Part shown: positions 28,009 to 52,645 of the stretch, one piece after another
Numbering within the stretch: the first letter of the stretch is position 1
Layout of the letters: the number at the start of each line of letters is the position of its first letter
From: Halorubrum sp. F4
GTDB lineage: Archaea > Halobacteriota > Halobacteria > Halobacteriales > Haloferacaceae
NCBI RefSeq assembly: GCF_027257195.1
Contig: NZ_JAPDFS010000001.1
Location: 321,246-385,245, forward strand
Direction: 5' to 3'
DNA: 64,000 nucleotides
Translations under genes and position numbers: made by a program
The notes under the pieces: generated by a model
The model's input: the letters and a program-made list of their open reading frames with translations, nothing else
The model's database searches: none
What the model was told of the DNA's origin: nothing

Positions 28009-29487
28009 TCACCGCTCCGCCGGAACGGACAACCGAAGGGTCGTTCCGCGCCCCTCGCCGGTGGACACGGAGAAGTCGCCGCCCGCCCTGCTCACGACCC
28101 AGTACATCAGCCAGATCCCCAGCCGGTCGGCGTGTCTCAGCGAGGTCTCACCGCCCTTGAGCACGTGCGTCTCGTGGTCCGGGATCCCGGGGCCGTCGTC
28201 CTCGATCTCGATCGCGATCCACTGTGGATCCGGGCGGTCGACCCGGATCGTGACCGAGGGGTTCGGATCGTCGTTGTGTTTGATCGCGTTCTCGATACCC
28301 TCCTCGACCGCGGTCAACAGCCCCGCGATGCTCACCTCGAGCGGGTCGTCCGCGGGAACGGACAGATCGATCCTCGCGTTCGGATACTGTCCCTCGAGCG
28401 CGTTCACGAGTTCCGAGAGCCGATCACGTAACGCGATCGGGGGTCCCGAGGGGTCGGTCGACGACAGCGTGTGATCGATCTTCCGTACCGCCTCCGCGAT
28501 CCCCATGAGGTCGTCGGTCGTCTCCGCTATCACCTCGAGCGGCTTCCGATGCTCCTCGCCGAGGTCCTCGCGTAGGAGCTCCGTGTACCCGCCGATGAGG
28601 TTCATCTTGTTTCGGAGGTTGTGGTTGAGGACGCGGTTCATCACCTCCAGCCTCCGCTCGCGGATCTTCCGGTCGGTGATGTCCGTCTGGAACCCGACGT
28701 AGTTCGTGACGGTCCCGGCCTCGTCGCGGATCGGCGCGACGGTGAGTCGGTTCCAGAACTTCCGGCCGTTCGCTCGGTAGTTCAGCACGTCCACGGAGAC
28801 CGGCTCCTCGGCGTCTATCGCCTCCCGGATCGTCGCTCTCGTCTCCTCGTCCGTTTCCTCGCCTTGGAGGAACCGACAGTCCTCGCCGAGCATCTCCGAT
28901 CCGTATCCGGTCAGCCGCTCGAACTCGGCGTTCACGTAGACCAACGGGTTGTTCCCCGATCCCGGCTCGGCGAGCGTGATTCCGACCGGCGACTCGTCCA
29001 TCGCTCGCTCCTTCAGCTCGAGATCCTCGACGGCCTCCTCGAGCCGTCGCTCGCGCTCCGCGAGCCGCAGGGAGGTCTCCCGCCGTTCGACCAGGTTCGC
29101 GATCCGGGTAGCCAGTTCGGCGCGTCTCACCGGGAGGTCGATGACGTCGTCGACGCGTGGCCACGCGTTCTTCACGGACCGCTCGTTCGTCCCCTCGGGG
29201 ATCAACAGGACGAACGGGAGGAAGACCGGGTCCGACCGCTTCCGTCTCGGTTCGATCGCGTCCGCCGCTCGCTCGAACCCGTCCACGTCGAGGACACAGC
29301 AGTCGTAGACCGAATCGAGAGCCTCGACGTCCGTCGCCGTCTCGATCCGGTATCGGTCGGACAGCGCTTCGGCCAGCAGCTCGCGGTCCCGACCCGGCCG
29401 CATGAACAACAGCAGGCTGGACGCGTCCTCGGGTCCCGAGGGGTCGCGGCTCGCCCCCGCCTCGGCGTCCTCGAAACCCGGGACCAT
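28009..29487 (-). CDS. LOV-domain sensor histidine kinase with N-terminal REC-like domain
   Basis: 492-residue kinase. Residues 24-130 are a degenerate receiver-like domain (CVLDVDGF). Residues 161-271 are a PAS domain of LOV type: GEDCRFLQG with the photoactive Cys204, NYR (Asn236), FWN (Asn246) and GFQ (Gln267), the flavin-contact positions of LOV domains. The Asn before the Cys in the usual motif is Asp here. The kinase core has H-box VLNHNLRNKMN (His289), N-box EGIENAIKHND and DDGPGIP. No membrane segment. It is divergent from a KaiC-like gene with 73 bp between starts. Likely a soluble blue-light sensor; flavin binding is inferred. Confidence 0.82.
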   Translation of the reverse strand: MVPGFEDAEAGASRDPSGPEDASSLLLFMRPGRDRELLAEALSDRYRIETATDVEALDSVYDCCVLDVDGFERAADAIEPRRKRSDPVFLPFVLLIPEGTNERSVKNAWPRVDDVIDLPVRRAELATRIANLVERRETSLRLAERERRLEEAVEDLELKERAMDESPVGITLAEPGSGNNPLVYVNAEFERLTGYGSEMLGEDCRFLQGEETDEETRATIREAIDAEEPVSVDVLNYRANGRKFWNRLTVAPIRDEAGTVTNYVGFQTDITDRKIRERRLEVMNRVLNHNLRNKMNLIGGYTELLREDLGEEHRKPLEVIAETTDDLMGIAEAVRKIDHTLSSTDPSGPPIALRDRLSELVNALEGQYPNARIDLSVPADDPLEVSIAGLLTAVEEGIENAIKHNDDPNPSVTIRVDRPDPQWIAIEIEDDGPGIPDHETHVLKGGETSLRHADRLGIWLMYWVVSRAGGDFSVSTGEGRGTTLRLSVPAER

Positions 29488-29518
29488 TTCCCATAAGAGG
29501 AGCGTCCACGTGCACTAA

Positions 29519-29535
29519 GCATTATCCCTTTATGG
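29519..29535. promoter_or_regulatory. Back-to-back TATA-like boxes of the LOV kinase and KaiC genes
   Basis: GCATTATC (29519-29526; GATAATGC on the minus strand) lies 32-39 nt before the kinase ATG. CTTTATGG (29528-29535) lies 26-33 nt before the KaiC ATG. The two boxes nearly touch, so expression of the two genes may be mutually exclusive or co-controlled. Confidence 0.5.
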
Positions 29536-29560
29536 TACCACCCGTCCAAGGATCCAGAGA

Positions 29561-31042
29561 ATGCCATCACCACTGCCCGAGCGACTCTCGACCGGAGTCG
29601 ATGGCCTCGACGAGATCCTCGCCGGCGGGCTCGTTCCGGAGCGGAGTTACATGATCAGCGGGCGGGCGGGAAGCGGAAAGACGATCCTCGGCTTTCACTT
29701 CCTCGCCGAGGGCGTCGAACGGGGAGAGACGGCCCTCTTCGTCAACCTCGAGGAGGACCTCGACGACCTGAAGACGAACGCCGCGGCCCTCGGGTTCGAC
29801 ACCGACGCGATCGACTTCCTCGATCTGAGCCCGAGCGCGGACGTCTTCACCGAGGACCAGTCCTACGAAGTGTTCGCTCCGTCGGAGGTCGAACGGGAGA
29901 CGCTCACGGAGCGGATCGTCGAGGGCGTCACGACGGTCGACCCGGACCGCGTCGTCGTCGACCCCCTGACGCAGCTGCGGTTCCTGACCGACGACGACTA
30001 CCAGTTCCGCAAACAGGTCGTCGGATTCATGCGATTTCTCAAGGAGCGGAACGCCACGGTGTTGTTCACCGTCCAGGACACGTCTTCGATGCCGACCGAC
30101 GACCTGGAGTTCATCACGGACGGGACGATCGTGTTGGGAACCGACGCGCACGGGAAGTCGATCCGCGTGCCGAAGTTTCGCGGGTCCTCGACGCAGAGCG
30201 GCGATCACGCCTACCGGATCACCGACGGCGGGATCGAGGTCTATCCCGCCCTCCAGCCGGGCGAGCACGTCGCCGAGTACGGCCTCGAGACGATATCTTC
30301 CGGGATCCCCGAGGTCGACGAGCTGCTCGCAGGCGGGCTCGAACGCGGGACCGTGAGCATCGTCAGCGGCCCCACCGGCGTCGGCAAGACGACGCTGTCC
30401 ACGCAGTTCATGAAGGAGGCCGCCGCCCGCGGGGAGCGGTCGGTCATCTACCTCTTCGAGGAGACGAAGGAGACGTTTCTCACCCGGTCGCGGGCGGTGG
30501 ACATTCCGGTCGACCGAATGATCGAGCGGGGAACGCTCCAGGTGAACGAGGTGGAGGCCTTGGAACGGTCGCCCCAGGAGTTCGCCCGGATGGTTCGTGA
30601 GGAGGTCGAAGAGCGAGACGCCGACATCGTGATGGTCGACGGGATCGCGGGATATCGTCTCACCCTCCGCGGGGAGGAGAACGCGATGCTTCAGCAGATG
30701 CACGCGCTGGGGCGCTATCTCAAGAACATGGGAGTCACGGCGATCTTCGTCGACGAGACCCGGAACGTCATCGGCGAGTTCCGCGCGACGATGGAGAACA
30801 TCAGCTACCTCGCGGACAACATCGTCTTTCTGCGGCATCTGGAGATACACGGGGAGATGCGGAAGGCGATCGGCGTGTTGAAGAAGCGAACCAGCGACTT
30901 CGAGCGGACGATCCGCGAGTTCCGGATCACGGAACACGGGATCGAGGTCGGCGAGCCGATGTCGAACATGCGCGGACTGTTGAGCGGAACCCCGGAGATG
31001 GTGAGGAACCACGAGCGGCGGGAGGACGGGACGGGAGGGTAA
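29561..31042 (+). CDS. KaiC-like two-domain RecA-superfamily ATPase
   Basis: 493 residues with two tandem KaiC domains. CI has Walker A GRAGSGKT (34-41) and catalytic EE at 64-65. CII has GPTGVGKT (270-277) and EE at 300-301. The C-terminal KaiC signature EIHGEMRKAIGVLKKR is present. In the CII phosphosite region, FRATMENISYLADN, Thr410 and Ser415 align with cyanobacterial Thr426 and Ser431, but Tyr416 replaces Thr432 (recalled alignment). No kaiA or kaiB is nearby. Haloarchaeal KaiC homologues are known and some are light-regulated; a timing or signalling role is inferred. Confidence 0.9.
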   Translation: MPSPLPERLSTGVDGLDEILAGGLVPERSYMISGRAGSGKTILGFHFLAEGVERGETALFVNLEEDLDDLKTNAAALGFDTDAIDFLDLSPSADVFTEDQSYEVFAPSEVERETLTERIVEGVTTVDPDRVVVDPLTQLRFLTDDDYQFRKQVVGFMRFLKERNATVLFTVQDTSSMPTDDLEFITDGTIVLGTDAHGKSIRVPKFRGSSTQSGDHAYRITDGGIEVYPALQPGEHVAEYGLETISSGIPEVDELLAGGLERGTVSIVSGPTGVGKTTLSTQFMKEAAARGERSVIYLFEETKETFLTRSRAVDIPVDRMIERGTLQVNEVEALERSPQEFARMVREEVEERDADIVMVDGIAGYRLTLRGEENAMLQQMHALGRYLKNMGVTAIFVDETRNVIGEFRATMENISYLADNIVFLRHLEIHGEMRKAIGVLKKRTSDFERTIREFRITEHGIEVGEPMSNMRGLLSGTPEMVRNHERREDGTGG

Positions 31043-49314: not shown

Positions 49315-50334
49315 TCAAGGAACGATCTCGAACCGTGCGCCGCCCTCGATCCCCTCTGTCACGGAGACGTCCCAGCCGTGGGCGTCCGCGATCCGGGCCA
49401 CGATCGAGAGACCGTAGCCGGTCCCGTCCTCCGTCGTCGAGTAGCCGTACTCGAACACCTCTCGACGGACGCTCTCGGGGATCCCGGGGCCGTCGTCGGC
49501 GACGTACAAGGTTCCGTCCGGCGTCCGACCGACGTGGACCGTCACGTCCGATCCGGCGTGCTCGACGCAGTTCCCGAAGAGGTTCTCGAGGAGTTCGCGA
49601 AAACGGCTCTCGTCGGCCTCGATCGTTCCCAACGCGGAGTCGATCCGCAGGGTCGCCCCCCGCGTGTCCACGTTCCGCCACGACTCGCGGACGCTCTCCT
49701 CGACCGCTACGGGCTCGGTCTCGCCGATCGACCGTCCCTCCTTCGAGAGCGCCAACACGTCCTCGACGAGGTCGTCGATCCTGGAGAGCGACTCGGCGAT
49801 GCTTTCGAGTTCGGGGTCGTCGCGGCTCTCTCGAGCGATTTCGGTGTACCCGATGGCGACTGAAAGCGGGTTGCGGATGTCGTGTGCGAGGATGTCCGCG
49901 AACTCGTCGAGGCGTTCCTTCTGGTCGCGGAGGTCCTCCTCGCGGCGCTTCCGTTCGGTGACGTCTCGGACGATCCCCGTGAAGTACTGTTCGCCGTCGT
50001 ACTCGTGTTCCCGAAGGCTGACGAGCGTCGGCACCTCGTGGCCGTCCTTGTGTTGGGCGGGGAGTTCGATCCCGTCCCAGTCGATGTTCCGTTCTCCGGT
50101 CCGGACGTACGCCGCGAGCGCTGAGGCGTGGACCGGCTGGAGCCGCTCCGGGATGATCTTCATCTTCGAGCTCCCGATCAGCTCGTCGGGGGCGTATCCC
50201 AGAATGTCCTCGATCGCGGGATTGGCGTAGACGATCTCGCTTTCGGCGTCGATCGTCAACATCCCCTCCGAGGCGTTCTCGACGAGGGTCCGATAGAAAT
50301 CGTCGGAGGCGACGGGTGGATCCGGCGATCTCAT
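49315..50334 (-). CDS. PAS-domain sensor histidine kinase
   Basis: 339 residues without membrane helices. One PAS domain (about 12-125, VENASEGMLTIDAESEIVYANP) is followed by HisKA with LAHDIRNPLS (His151) and HATPase with LLENLFGNCVEHAG, DDGPGIP and GTGYGLSIV. The Met at 50334 is chosen because a GTTAACTAT element is 31-40 nt upstream; the longer frame is encoded by a tandem repeat. It lies downstream of another kinase on the same strand. No response regulator with an output domain is adjacent. Confidence 0.88.
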   Translation of the reverse strand: MRSPDPPVASDDFYRTLVENASEGMLTIDAESEIVYANPAIEDILGYAPDELIGSSKMKIIPERLQPVHASALAAYVRTGERNIDWDGIELPAQHKDGHEVPTLVSLREHEYDGEQYFTGIVRDVTERKRREEDLRDQKERLDEFADILAHDIRNPLSVAIGYTEIARESRDDPELESIAESLSRIDDLVEDVLALSKEGRSIGETEPVAVEESVRESWRNVDTRGATLRIDSALGTIEADESRFRELLENLFGNCVEHAGSDVTVHVGRTPDGTLYVADDGPGIPESVRREVFEYGYSTTEDGTGYGLSIVARIADAHGWDVSVTEGIEGGARFEIVP

Positions 50335-50461: not shown

Positions 50462-52645
50462 GGTCACGATCTCGAATCGAACGCCGTCGAGCGCGTTCGC
50501 GTCGGCGATGTCGATCTCCCAGCCGTGGGCCAACACGATCTGTCTGACGCTCGCCATCCCCATCCCGATCCCCTCGTCCCCCGTCTTCGTCGAGAACCCC
50601 GGGATGAAGACGTGCTCGCGATGTTCCGGGTCGATCCCCGAACCGTTGTCCTCGTAGAACACCCCGCCGTCGAAGCGACCGACGCGGACGTCGACGTCAG
50701 CGGGCCCGTGTTCGATCGAGTTCCCGACCAGGTTCTCCAACAGCCGCTGGAGCGCGTCGGGGTCCGCGTCGATCCGCACGTCGTCCGGTGCCGTGTACGA
50801 CGCGGCCGCGGGCGGATCGACGGCGGTCCAGACGTCGTCCAACACGGGGGCGAGTTCGACGGACCGTACGTCCGAGACGATCTCGCCGGACTGGAGGGTG
50901 TTCACGAGGTCGGTCCGGAGGTCGTCGACCCGCTCCATCGCCCGGATCGCGTGTTCGACGTGTTCCATATCGCCGGTCTCGTGTGCCAGCTCCAACCGCC
51001 CGGTAACCGTCGATATCGGGCTCTGAAGGTCGTGTGAGACGAAGCTTGCGAGCTCGTCGAGCCGCTCTTTCCGCCGCCGAAGCTCGCGAGTTCGCTCCGC
51101 CAGCTCCCGAGTCCGCCGAACCCGTTCCGTCACGTCCGTCGCGGAGACGACGATCCGCGTCACGTCCCCCTCGTCGTCGAAAACGGGACGGAGCGTCCCC
51201 TCGACCGTCGCCGGTTCGTCGATCCCCCCATCGCTGTGATGTGTGGCGTCGTATTCGACGTAGTCCCCGGCTGCGGCCTCCTCGATCCACCGCTCGACGG
51301 CCTCGCGCTGGTCGTCGGTCCACCAGGGTGTCTCCGAGAACGGCTCCCCGACGACGTCGTCGCGTGCGGCGTCGAGGTACCCGATCGCCGTGTCGTTCAC
51401 GTCGAGCGTGGTGCCGTCGGTGTCGAGGAGGCCGACGAGGAGGTTCGGGTCGTTGAATATCGCCTCGAAGTCGCGTTCCGTCCGTCTGAGCGCCAGTTCA
51501 CGCCGCTTGAGCTCCGTGATGTCTCTCCCCTCCGGGACGAGAAGCGTCACCTCGTCGTCCCCGTTCGTGACCGGACGGACGGAGAAGTCGACGAACGCCC
51601 TCCCGTCCTCCCCGCGGATCGTGACCTCATCGCGATAGAGCTCACCGTCGCGTGCGGTCTCGACCGCCTCGCGGGCGGTCTCCCGGGCGTCCGGTCCCGA
51701 CTGGAACCACGGTCCCTCCCACAGCGGCTCCCCGACGACCGCCTCCCGATCGACGCCGGCGAACGAGAGCGCGGCGTCGTTCGCCTCCAGGATCGTGCCG
51801 TCCGGTTCGGTCAGGCCGGTGAGCTGATAGGTGTTGTCGAAGATCGCCTCGAATCGGCGTTCCCGACGTTTCGACTCCGTGACGTCGGTGATGAACCCCT
51901 CGACCGATTCCCCGTCCGTCGTGGCGAGGTCGACGGCCCGGCCGCGCTCCCACACCCACTTCGTCTCGCCACCCTCCGTCCGGATCCGGTAGGTACACTC
52001 GAAGGGATCGTCCCGTTCGATCGCGCCCTGGATCGCGTCCCAGACTCGGTCCCGGTCGTCCGGATGGATGGCGTCCTCTCCCCAGACGAGGTCGCCCGTC
52101 ACGAACCGGTCCGTCTCGTATCCGGTGAGCTTTTCGAGGTCACCCTCGACGTCCTCCATCGGCCACCCGGGCTCGTTCCGGCAGCGGTAGACGACTCCCG
52201 GGAGGTTGCTGACGAGGGTCTCGAGGTACCGCTTCTGCCGCGAGACCGCGCGTCGAGACCGATCGCGCTCGACGACGTTCTCGATCCGATTCGCCAAGAG
52301 CGTGTACTGGTCAGTTCCGCTCTCCTTTTGGAGGTACTCCGTCACTCCCGCGGAGACCGCGTCGCTCGCGACCGTCTCCGAGCCCTTCCCCGTGAACAGC
52401 ACGAACGGGAGGTCGGGACGTTCCTCACGGATCGACTCGAGGAGTTCGATCCCGTCCATTCCGGGCATGTCGTGATCGGAGACGATACAATCGATCCCGC
52501 CGCTTCTCGCCGCCTCCAGCGCTGCCGTCGGATCCGTCTCGGTTCGGACGTCGATCCGCTCGCTCTCCCGTTCCAGGAACTCGGCCGCGAGGTCCGTGAA
52601 CGCGGCGTCGTCGTCGACGTGAAGCACCCGGATCGGATCGGTCAC
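50456..52645 (-). CDS. Hybrid sensor: receiver, three PAS domains, histidine kinase
   Basis: 729 residues. The receiver (1-120) has DDD at 11-13, phosphoacceptor Asp57 in VSDHDMPGMDG and Lys in QKESG. PAS domains lie at about 140-255, 260-375 and 385-500. HisKA contains FVSHDLQSPIS and the HATPase contains LLENLVGNSIEHG and DNGSGIDPEH. It starts at a GTG. An AGGAGG lies 6-11 nt upstream, but a TATA-like CCTATTAATG 23-32 nt upstream implies a leaderless mRNA. An N-terminal receiver suggests it accepts signal from another kinase. Confidence 0.87.
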   Translation of the reverse strand: MTDPIRVLHVDDDAAFTDLAAEFLERESERIDVRTETDPTAALEAARSGGIDCIVSDHDMPGMDGIELLESIREERPDLPFVLFTGKGSETVASDAVSAGVTEYLQKESGTDQYTLLANRIENVVERDRSRRAVSRQKRYLETLVSNLPGVVYRCRNEPGWPMEDVEGDLEKLTGYETDRFVTGDLVWGEDAIHPDDRDRVWDAIQGAIERDDPFECTYRIRTEGGETKWVWERGRAVDLATTDGESVEGFITDVTESKRRERRFEAIFDNTYQLTGLTEPDGTILEANDAALSFAGVDREAVVGEPLWEGPWFQSGPDARETAREAVETARDGELYRDEVTIRGEDGRAFVDFSVRPVTNGDDEVTLLVPEGRDITELKRRELALRRTERDFEAIFNDPNLLVGLLDTDGTTLDVNDTAIGYLDAARDDVVGEPFSETPWWTDDQREAVERWIEEAAAGDYVEYDATHHSDGGIDEPATVEGTLRPVFDDEGDVTRIVVSATDVTERVRRTRELAERTRELRRRKERLDELASFVSHDLQSPISTVTGRLELAHETGDMEHVEHAIRAMERVDDLRTDLVNTLQSGEIVSDVRSVELAPVLDDVWTAVDPPAAASYTAPDDVRIDADPDALQRLLENLVGNSIEHGPADVDVRVGRFDGGVFYEDNGSGIDPEHREHVFIPGFSTKTGDEGIGMGMASVRQIVLAHGWEIDIADANALDGVRFEIVTE

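Follow-up and report, generated by a model that had tools for sequence, protein, structure and literature searches.

A LOV histidine kinase with an N-terminal pseudo-receiver recurrently paired with two-domain KaiC homologues in Halobacteria

The LOV kinase and KaiC genes of Halorubrum sp. F4

The window analysed here, a stretch of 64,000 nucleotides from Halorubrum sp. F4 (assembly GCF_027257195.1, contig NZ_JAPDFS010000001.1, positions 321,246 to 385,245), carries a LOV histidine kinase gene (492 residues, positions 28009 to 29487, minus strand) that diverges from a gene encoding a two-domain KaiC homologue (493 residues, 29561 to 31042, plus strand), the two start codons being 73 bp apart. 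Both open reading frames lie where the original prediction, made from the letters alone, had placed them, and its description of a LOV-type kinase, with Cys204, Asn236, Asn246 and Gln267, beside a KaiC-like ATPase is borne out by Pfam and NCBIfam searches and by alignment. What it missed is a degenerate receiver at the N-terminus of the kinase, a domain that accompanies nearly all the two-domain KaiC genes sampled across Halobacteria.

The kinase is made up of this degenerate receiver (residues 22-145, 29053 to 29424), a LOV domain (residues 159-275, 28663 to 29013), a dimerisation and phosphoacceptor region (28453 to 28662) with the H-box His289 (HNLRNK), and a HATPase_c domain (residues 389-491, 28015 to 28323), all encoded on the minus strand. 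Its PAS region is matched by Pfam PAS_9 (E 7e-19), and the top NCBIfam match of the protein is the YtvA blue-light family (E 4.7e-39, with 134 bits for a model whose full-length cut-off is 250), many LOV proteins also standing among its top PDB sequence matches. The photoactive cysteine, Cys204 in the motif GEDCRFLQG (codon 28876 to 28878, minus strand), is accompanied by the flavin contacts of the LOV pattern (CRxxQ, N, N, Q), namely R205, Q208, N236, N246 and Q267. When the window kinase is aligned with its 29 best matches, N246 is kept in 29 of the 30 rows and the five other residues in all of them. Likewise, H289, N400 and the DDGPGIP box (D430, G432-P436) of histidine kinases are invariant in the 30 rows, the HATPase_c match reaching 54.6 bits and the HisKA match being weak (20.6 bits, under the Pfam cut-off). 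Judged by these features, the kinase is probably a blue-light sensor. A FixL-type oxygen sensor was set aside, as LOV families are the best matches of the PAS domain and the LOV cysteine is present in it (haem binding lay outside the analysis), and a SasA-type kinase was rejected, as the KaiB-like domain of SasA (PF07689) has no match in the window kinase. Of note, window-type kinases of genus g13 (L033, L034, L035 and L036; L and G numbers are our handles for loci and genomes) have an altered LOV pocket, with Gln or Glu for N246 and, in L035, Phe for the cysteine.

Regarding the N-terminus, the first ~125 residues have no significant Pfam match and show the (beta-alpha)5 fold of receivers. 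The acidic pair after strand 1 and the Lys before the conserved Pro are absent from the window kinase, and we therefore call this domain a pseudo-receiver (PsR).

The neighbouring protein matches two-domain KaiC from end to end and holds two tandem RecA-type domains, each with a Walker A motif and a Glu pair, so that both ATPase sites are present: a CI-like domain (29579 to 30250, GRAGSGKT) and a CII-like domain (30290 to 31003, GPTGVGKT), both on the plus strand. In clock KaiC, a Ser-Thr pair serves as a dual phosphosite. The aligned residues of the window protein are Ser415-Tyr416 (30803 to 30808, plus strand), and the position reads Ser-Tyr in 110 of 125 aligned KaiC homologues. The original prediction also spoke of a module without kaiA and kaiB. 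As to KaiB, a search with PF07689, which did detect it in S. elongatus, found none in the window genome, and among 243 Halobacteria it gave no match reaching the family cut-off, with 3 weak ones below it. KaiA is described as confined to cyanobacteria (PMC5520375).

Within the intergenic region (73 bp, 29488 to 29560), two TATA-like elements nearly touch each other, as had been predicted: CACTAAG on the side of the kinase gene (29513 to 29519; CTTAGTG on the minus strand) and CCTTTATGG on the side of the kaiC-like gene (29527 to 29535, plus strand), the latter reading CATTTATAT in many relatives. The two are common to 19 aligned upstream regions, 14 with a gap of 72-74 bp and 5 in which the kinase start was re-read by a conserved CAT, and they stand in a block whose columns are mostly at least 80% identical. 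Over the 27 pairs with both 5' ends placed, the shortest gap has 47 bp and the longest 286 bp, with 72-74 bp in 14 pairs. In the window, the elements lie 26-34 bp ahead of the start codons, a spacing that would be expected for leaderless transcripts, and both are candidate promoters.

Recurrence of the pair and of the pseudo-receiver

The synteny by which the original prediction was to be tested extends well outside this strain. Of the 30 loci formed by the window and the 29 best kinase matches, 28 have a divergent KaiC gene next to the kinase. The exceptions are L067, whose kinase lies near the end of a contig, and L079, from genome G202, and two of the 28 (L062 and L074, from G171 and G038) have their KaiC gene in pieces. 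A plasmid search with the kinase returned only matches below 60% identity.

For a wider sample, 243 Halobacteria were searched with KaiC, and the genes around 124 two-domain KaiC genes, all outside the window genome, were scored; among the KaiC matches listed, 25 low-similarity rows fell outside the sample and 14 others at the low end were picked by hand, while L147-L151 and L166, which were chosen by their kinase or are duplicates, were kept apart from the 124. A PsR-bearing open reading frame lies within 400 bp of 117 of these genes, in 43 of 45 genera. By a window-type kinase profile, 97 genes have an adjacent kinase, which carries an intact LOV domain in 47 cases, a LOV-like domain without the cysteine in 11 and no LOV domain in 39, and 27 have none. 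This last class is in part a limit of the HATPase profile: among eight such partners submitted to Pfam, three (L038, L046, L094) have HATPase_c, L099 has PAS only and L040 is an ordinary receiver. At the remaining three, L091, L095 and L054, the two-domain KaiC is followed by a PsR-GAF-BAT-HTH_10 transcription regulator, not a kinase. PsR partners vary both in the sensor attached (LOV, cysteine-less LOV or other PAS) and in the output (kinase or GAF-BAT-HTH_10).

Once the 29 window-type genes are put aside, 95 KaiC genes are left, 19 with a LOV kinase that has the cysteine, 10 with one that lacks it, 39 with another kinase and 27 with none. A KaiC tree (FastTree) calls for at least 8 changes of LOV state. 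Divergent LOV kinases are found in the window type and in relatives from g2, g13, g17, f7 and f3; elsewhere the LOV kinase and KaiC genes point the same way, the kinase being downstream (Haloferax and others) or upstream (L088), or the LOV kinase comes as the second kinase after KaiC (L129, L131, L139). For 77 of the 124 KaiC genes, no adjacent kinase has an intact LOV domain, so that light would seem to be one of several inputs. The cysteine of the 11 LOV-like partners without it is replaced by Pro in nine, by Met in one and by Phe in one. Among kinases beside KaiC, L100, L102, L104, L106, L108, L111, L112, L116 and L120 have Pro for the cysteine and retain nearly all other flavin contacts.

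LOV motifs are themselves widespread: a DNA pattern finds them in 197 of the 243 genomes, mostly 1-4 in each. The window genome, of 3.28 Mb in 75 contigs, has 3, for 41 HATPase_c matches, and besides that of the LOV kinase the window itself holds two HATPase_c matches close together on the minus strand (49318-49614 and 50468-50764). Seven genomes together have 20 LOV motifs per 301 HATPase matches, a rate biased upwards, as these are the window's genome and six picked for a LOV domain beside KaiC. Outside the window type, 19 of 68 adjacent kinases have a LOV domain with the cysteine (p 4e-6 versus this base rate; 1.6e-4 when the denominator is the 88 PsR partners and 5e-4 when it is all 95 KaiC genes), p values which ignore kinship between species and are guides only.

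The linkage of PsR to KaiC was also followed across the phylum, in 246 sampled genomes of which 43 are Halobacteria. PsR was scored (E<=1e-10) on the 17 best first-look candidates of each genome, and two-domain KaiC was called present at a best E<1e-100, presence calls being read by hand. PsR occurs in 32 of the 43 Halobacteria, with 48 matches. By KaiC positions, 34 of these have a two-domain KaiC within about 2 kb (in G038, one in pieces), and the 14 others, in 13 regions, divide into 6 with KaiC, 1 with a KaiC remnant and 7 without, so that 41 of the 48 are linked. At the level of genomes, 29 have both KaiC and PsR, one has KaiC only (G002), three have PsR only and 10 have neither (Fisher p 1.5e-6). 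KaiC distances are correlated with PsR distances, with a rho of 0.50 for n=88, a value attained in 0 of 500 permutations (highest 0.13). Ten genomes have two pairs, and 18 of the 20 tests made on them show PsR tracking the KaiC paralogue of its own pair. A stricter statement, that PsR is found only beside KaiC, had held for the 15 strong matches (E<1e-20) of 10 hand-picked genomes (14 with KaiC, 1 with a remnant) and was dropped in view of the seven exceptions in the wider sample. PsR kinases beside short KaiC remnants are found at L220 (G109) and L244 (G037). Outside Halobacteria, 7 PsR-like matches were examined, of which one adjoins a two-domain KaiC (L262), two adjoin a single-domain KaiC (L258 and L260, the PsR-like protein lying directly 3' of the KaiC-like gene) and four adjoin none.

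Interpretation of the pair

We consider it probable that the KaiC ATPase is coupled, via the pseudo-receiver, to a blue-light histidine kinase in one conserved signalling module. That kinase and KaiC form a functional pair is well supported; their direct contact and the control by light are what we infer. As KaiC and PsR are steady while sensor and output are exchangeable, the physical link is best placed at the PsR and the light input at the LOV domain, with the kinase core as output. In such a module, the LOV domain would bind flavin and sense blue light through a cysteinyl adduct at Cys204, and its light state would alter the activity of the HisKA/HATPase core towards a putative response regulator. 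The N-terminal PsR would dock on the KaiC ATPase ring, and KaiC, by its ATP or phosphorylation state, and the kinase, by its light state, may influence each other, the signal possibly flowing in either direction. In other species, different sensors or an output that binds DNA would be attached at this KaiC/PsR interface.

Published work on Haloferax volcanii fits the light link of the LOV-KaiC pair. In this species, orc2 is reported to lie directly upstream of cirC and 'fixL' to adjoin it, cir transcripts being higher in the dark and cirC being light-regulated (PMC3941300). In H. sulfurifontis, we found, in this order, an Orc1/Cdc6-type gene (by sequence), a two-domain KaiC gene and a gene for a PsR-LOV-PAS kinase of 858 residues, the last two overlapping by 4 bp, a neighbourhood that corresponds to the one published for H. 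volcanii, and the adjacent kinase of close Haloferax relatives keeps an intact LOV motif. The cirC reverse primer is exact on the H. sulfurifontis and H. denitrificans genes and the forward primer has one mismatch; since the latter is also exact on two loci of another genus (g4; L096, L103), primer matches alone are weak. Judging from H. sulfurifontis and its relatives, with H. volcanii lying outside the eight loci of the genome scan, 'fixL' would be a LOV kinase.

Several points weigh against this coupling. Regarding the PsR, Asp67, the phospho-Asp of receivers, is retained in the window kinase and in most relatives, 7 of the 48 PsR matches have no nearby KaiC, so that the domain is not exclusive to KaiC, and three of the 43 Halobacteria (G005, G025, G042) have PsR without two-domain KaiC; with only 17 candidates scored per genome, some PsR absences may also be misses. 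The statistics suffer from the non-independence of species, and the correlation of KaiC and PsR distances would also come from common descent of the operon alone. Some loci do not conform: G202 (L147) and G173 (L148) have a window-type kinase and no KaiC in an 11-kb stretch, the draft G187 (L150) has a kinase without the PsR part, which matches only from the LOV domain on, and no KaiC in 8 kb, G171 (L119) and G038 (L142) have an intact kinase next to a KaiC gene broken up by frame changes, and the kinase is split in G065 (L151), these splits reflecting either decay or sequencing error. Furthermore, the nine adjacent partners with Pro for the LOV cysteine imply that light is not essential to the module. 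Finally, a physical or genetic interaction of kinase and KaiC is so far presumed from sequence, synteny and co-inheritance.

The kinases without nearby KaiC in G202 and G173, and the frame-split KaiC genes of G171 and G038, would suit a different explanation, according to which the two genes are unrelated and share their divergent promoter by history, the kinase being a stand-alone light-sensing two-component kinase and KaiC acting elsewhere. However, kinase and KaiC also stand together in other gene orders (the kinase being downstream, divergent or upstream), and the same PsR domain stands beside 117 of the 124 KaiC genes and is co-inherited with them, which makes this explanation unlikely in our opinion. 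It is a little less likely still that the PAS domain binds flavin and reports redox or oxygen instead of light, as cysteine-less relatives may do. Indeed, the adjacent partners with Pro, Met or Phe at the cysteine position largely keep the other flavin contacts, but Cys204 is present in all 30 close homologues, and canonical photochemistry has been published for haloarchaeal LOV domains, one of which has a photocycle at salt concentrations of up to 3 M (PMC12202551). Least probable in our estimate is a light-entrained timing module free of KaiA and KaiB, with KaiC phosphorylation cycling and the LOV kinase setting the phase: it is favoured by the two ATPase domains of the KaiC homologue, by the report that H. 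volcanii cirC is rhythmic in light/dark cycles and that deleting cirB, cirC or cirD leaves cir expression arrhythmic (PMC3941300), and by the oscillating transcription described for Halobacterium in constant darkness after entrainment (PMC2675056), but it is opposed by the report that cir expression in H. volcanii does not vary during 12 h of constant light or dark (PMC3941300), by the 77 KaiC genes without an intact LOV domain in an adjacent kinase, by the Ser-Tyr pair and by the lack of a KaiB above cut-off in 243 genomes.

The last two observations leave a clock function unproven. The original prediction had suggested a light-input or timing module, of which the light link agrees with the published light-dependence of cirC, while the timing part is as yet unsupported, in view of the phosphosite, of the lack of a SasA KaiB-like domain in the kinase and of the 77 KaiC genes without an intact LOV partner. 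To return to the coupling through the PsR, a broader version of it, which we put forward as doubtful, would give Halobacteria a KaiC-based keeper of state that responds to light and may serve as a timer. In it, the PsR family, fed by exchangeable sensors that include LOV, would replace KaiA, KaiB and CikA as KaiC-binding partner, and the window pair would be the dedicated blue-light version.

Comparison with known systems

CikA and SasA are cyanobacterial histidine kinases, acting in input and output, that work with KaiC, and CikA has a pseudo-receiver. The window kinase is likewise a histidine kinase partnered with KaiC and shares a pseudo-receiver with CikA; unlike these systems, it has no KaiB-like domain, its pseudo-receiver is at the other end, its sensor is a LOV domain, and KaiB was not found in its genome. 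A closer likeness is offered by the cirC-fixL pair of H. volcanii, a two-domain KaiC gene beside an annotated sensor kinase with light-dependent expression (PMC3941300). In contrast to the divergent window pair, the genes are in tandem in close Haloferax relatives, and what was published as an oxygen sensor has an intact LOV domain there. CirA, another KaiC homologue of H. volcanii, has been tied to motility and cell shape (2026, PMC13286277).

Regarding LOV kinases, those of Lake Diamante archaea combine LOV domains with receiver, PAS and kinase domains in Halobacteria, N-terminal receivers included, and LOV domains with Pro or Phe for the cysteine were seen in the metagenome, a kind to which the nine Pro-bearing partners of KaiC belong; the main text of that study has 0 occurrences of KaiC (PMC12202551). 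The architectures REC-PAS-HisKA-HATPase and REC-PAS-GAF-BAT-HTH_10 are listed by Galperin et al. (PMC5847659).

That PsR stands beside nearly all sampled two-domain KaiC genes leads to a specific hypothesis on what archaeal KaiC binds. The LOV kinase, in turn, is a defined candidate photoreceptor with a single testable cysteine and may explain why cirC expression was found to depend on light in H. volcanii, a species amenable to genetics. Both bear on the question of light sensing or timekeeping by KaiC homologues of archaea. Archaeal KaiC-like ATPases have reportedly been proposed, by Makarova, Galperin and Koonin in mBio in 2017, to be signal transduction hubs with input and output domains. 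The LOV-PsR kinase with KaiC would fit among these proposed hubs; neither the LOV-KaiC pairing nor PsR as a KaiC partner is described in the passages of the open literature surveyed, and the 2017 article may already note some of it. Like the hubs, the pair would join a KaiC-family ATPase to signalling domains; the difference is that here a specific domain, the PsR, marks nearly all sampled partners, the LOV domain being one of the sensors plugged into it.

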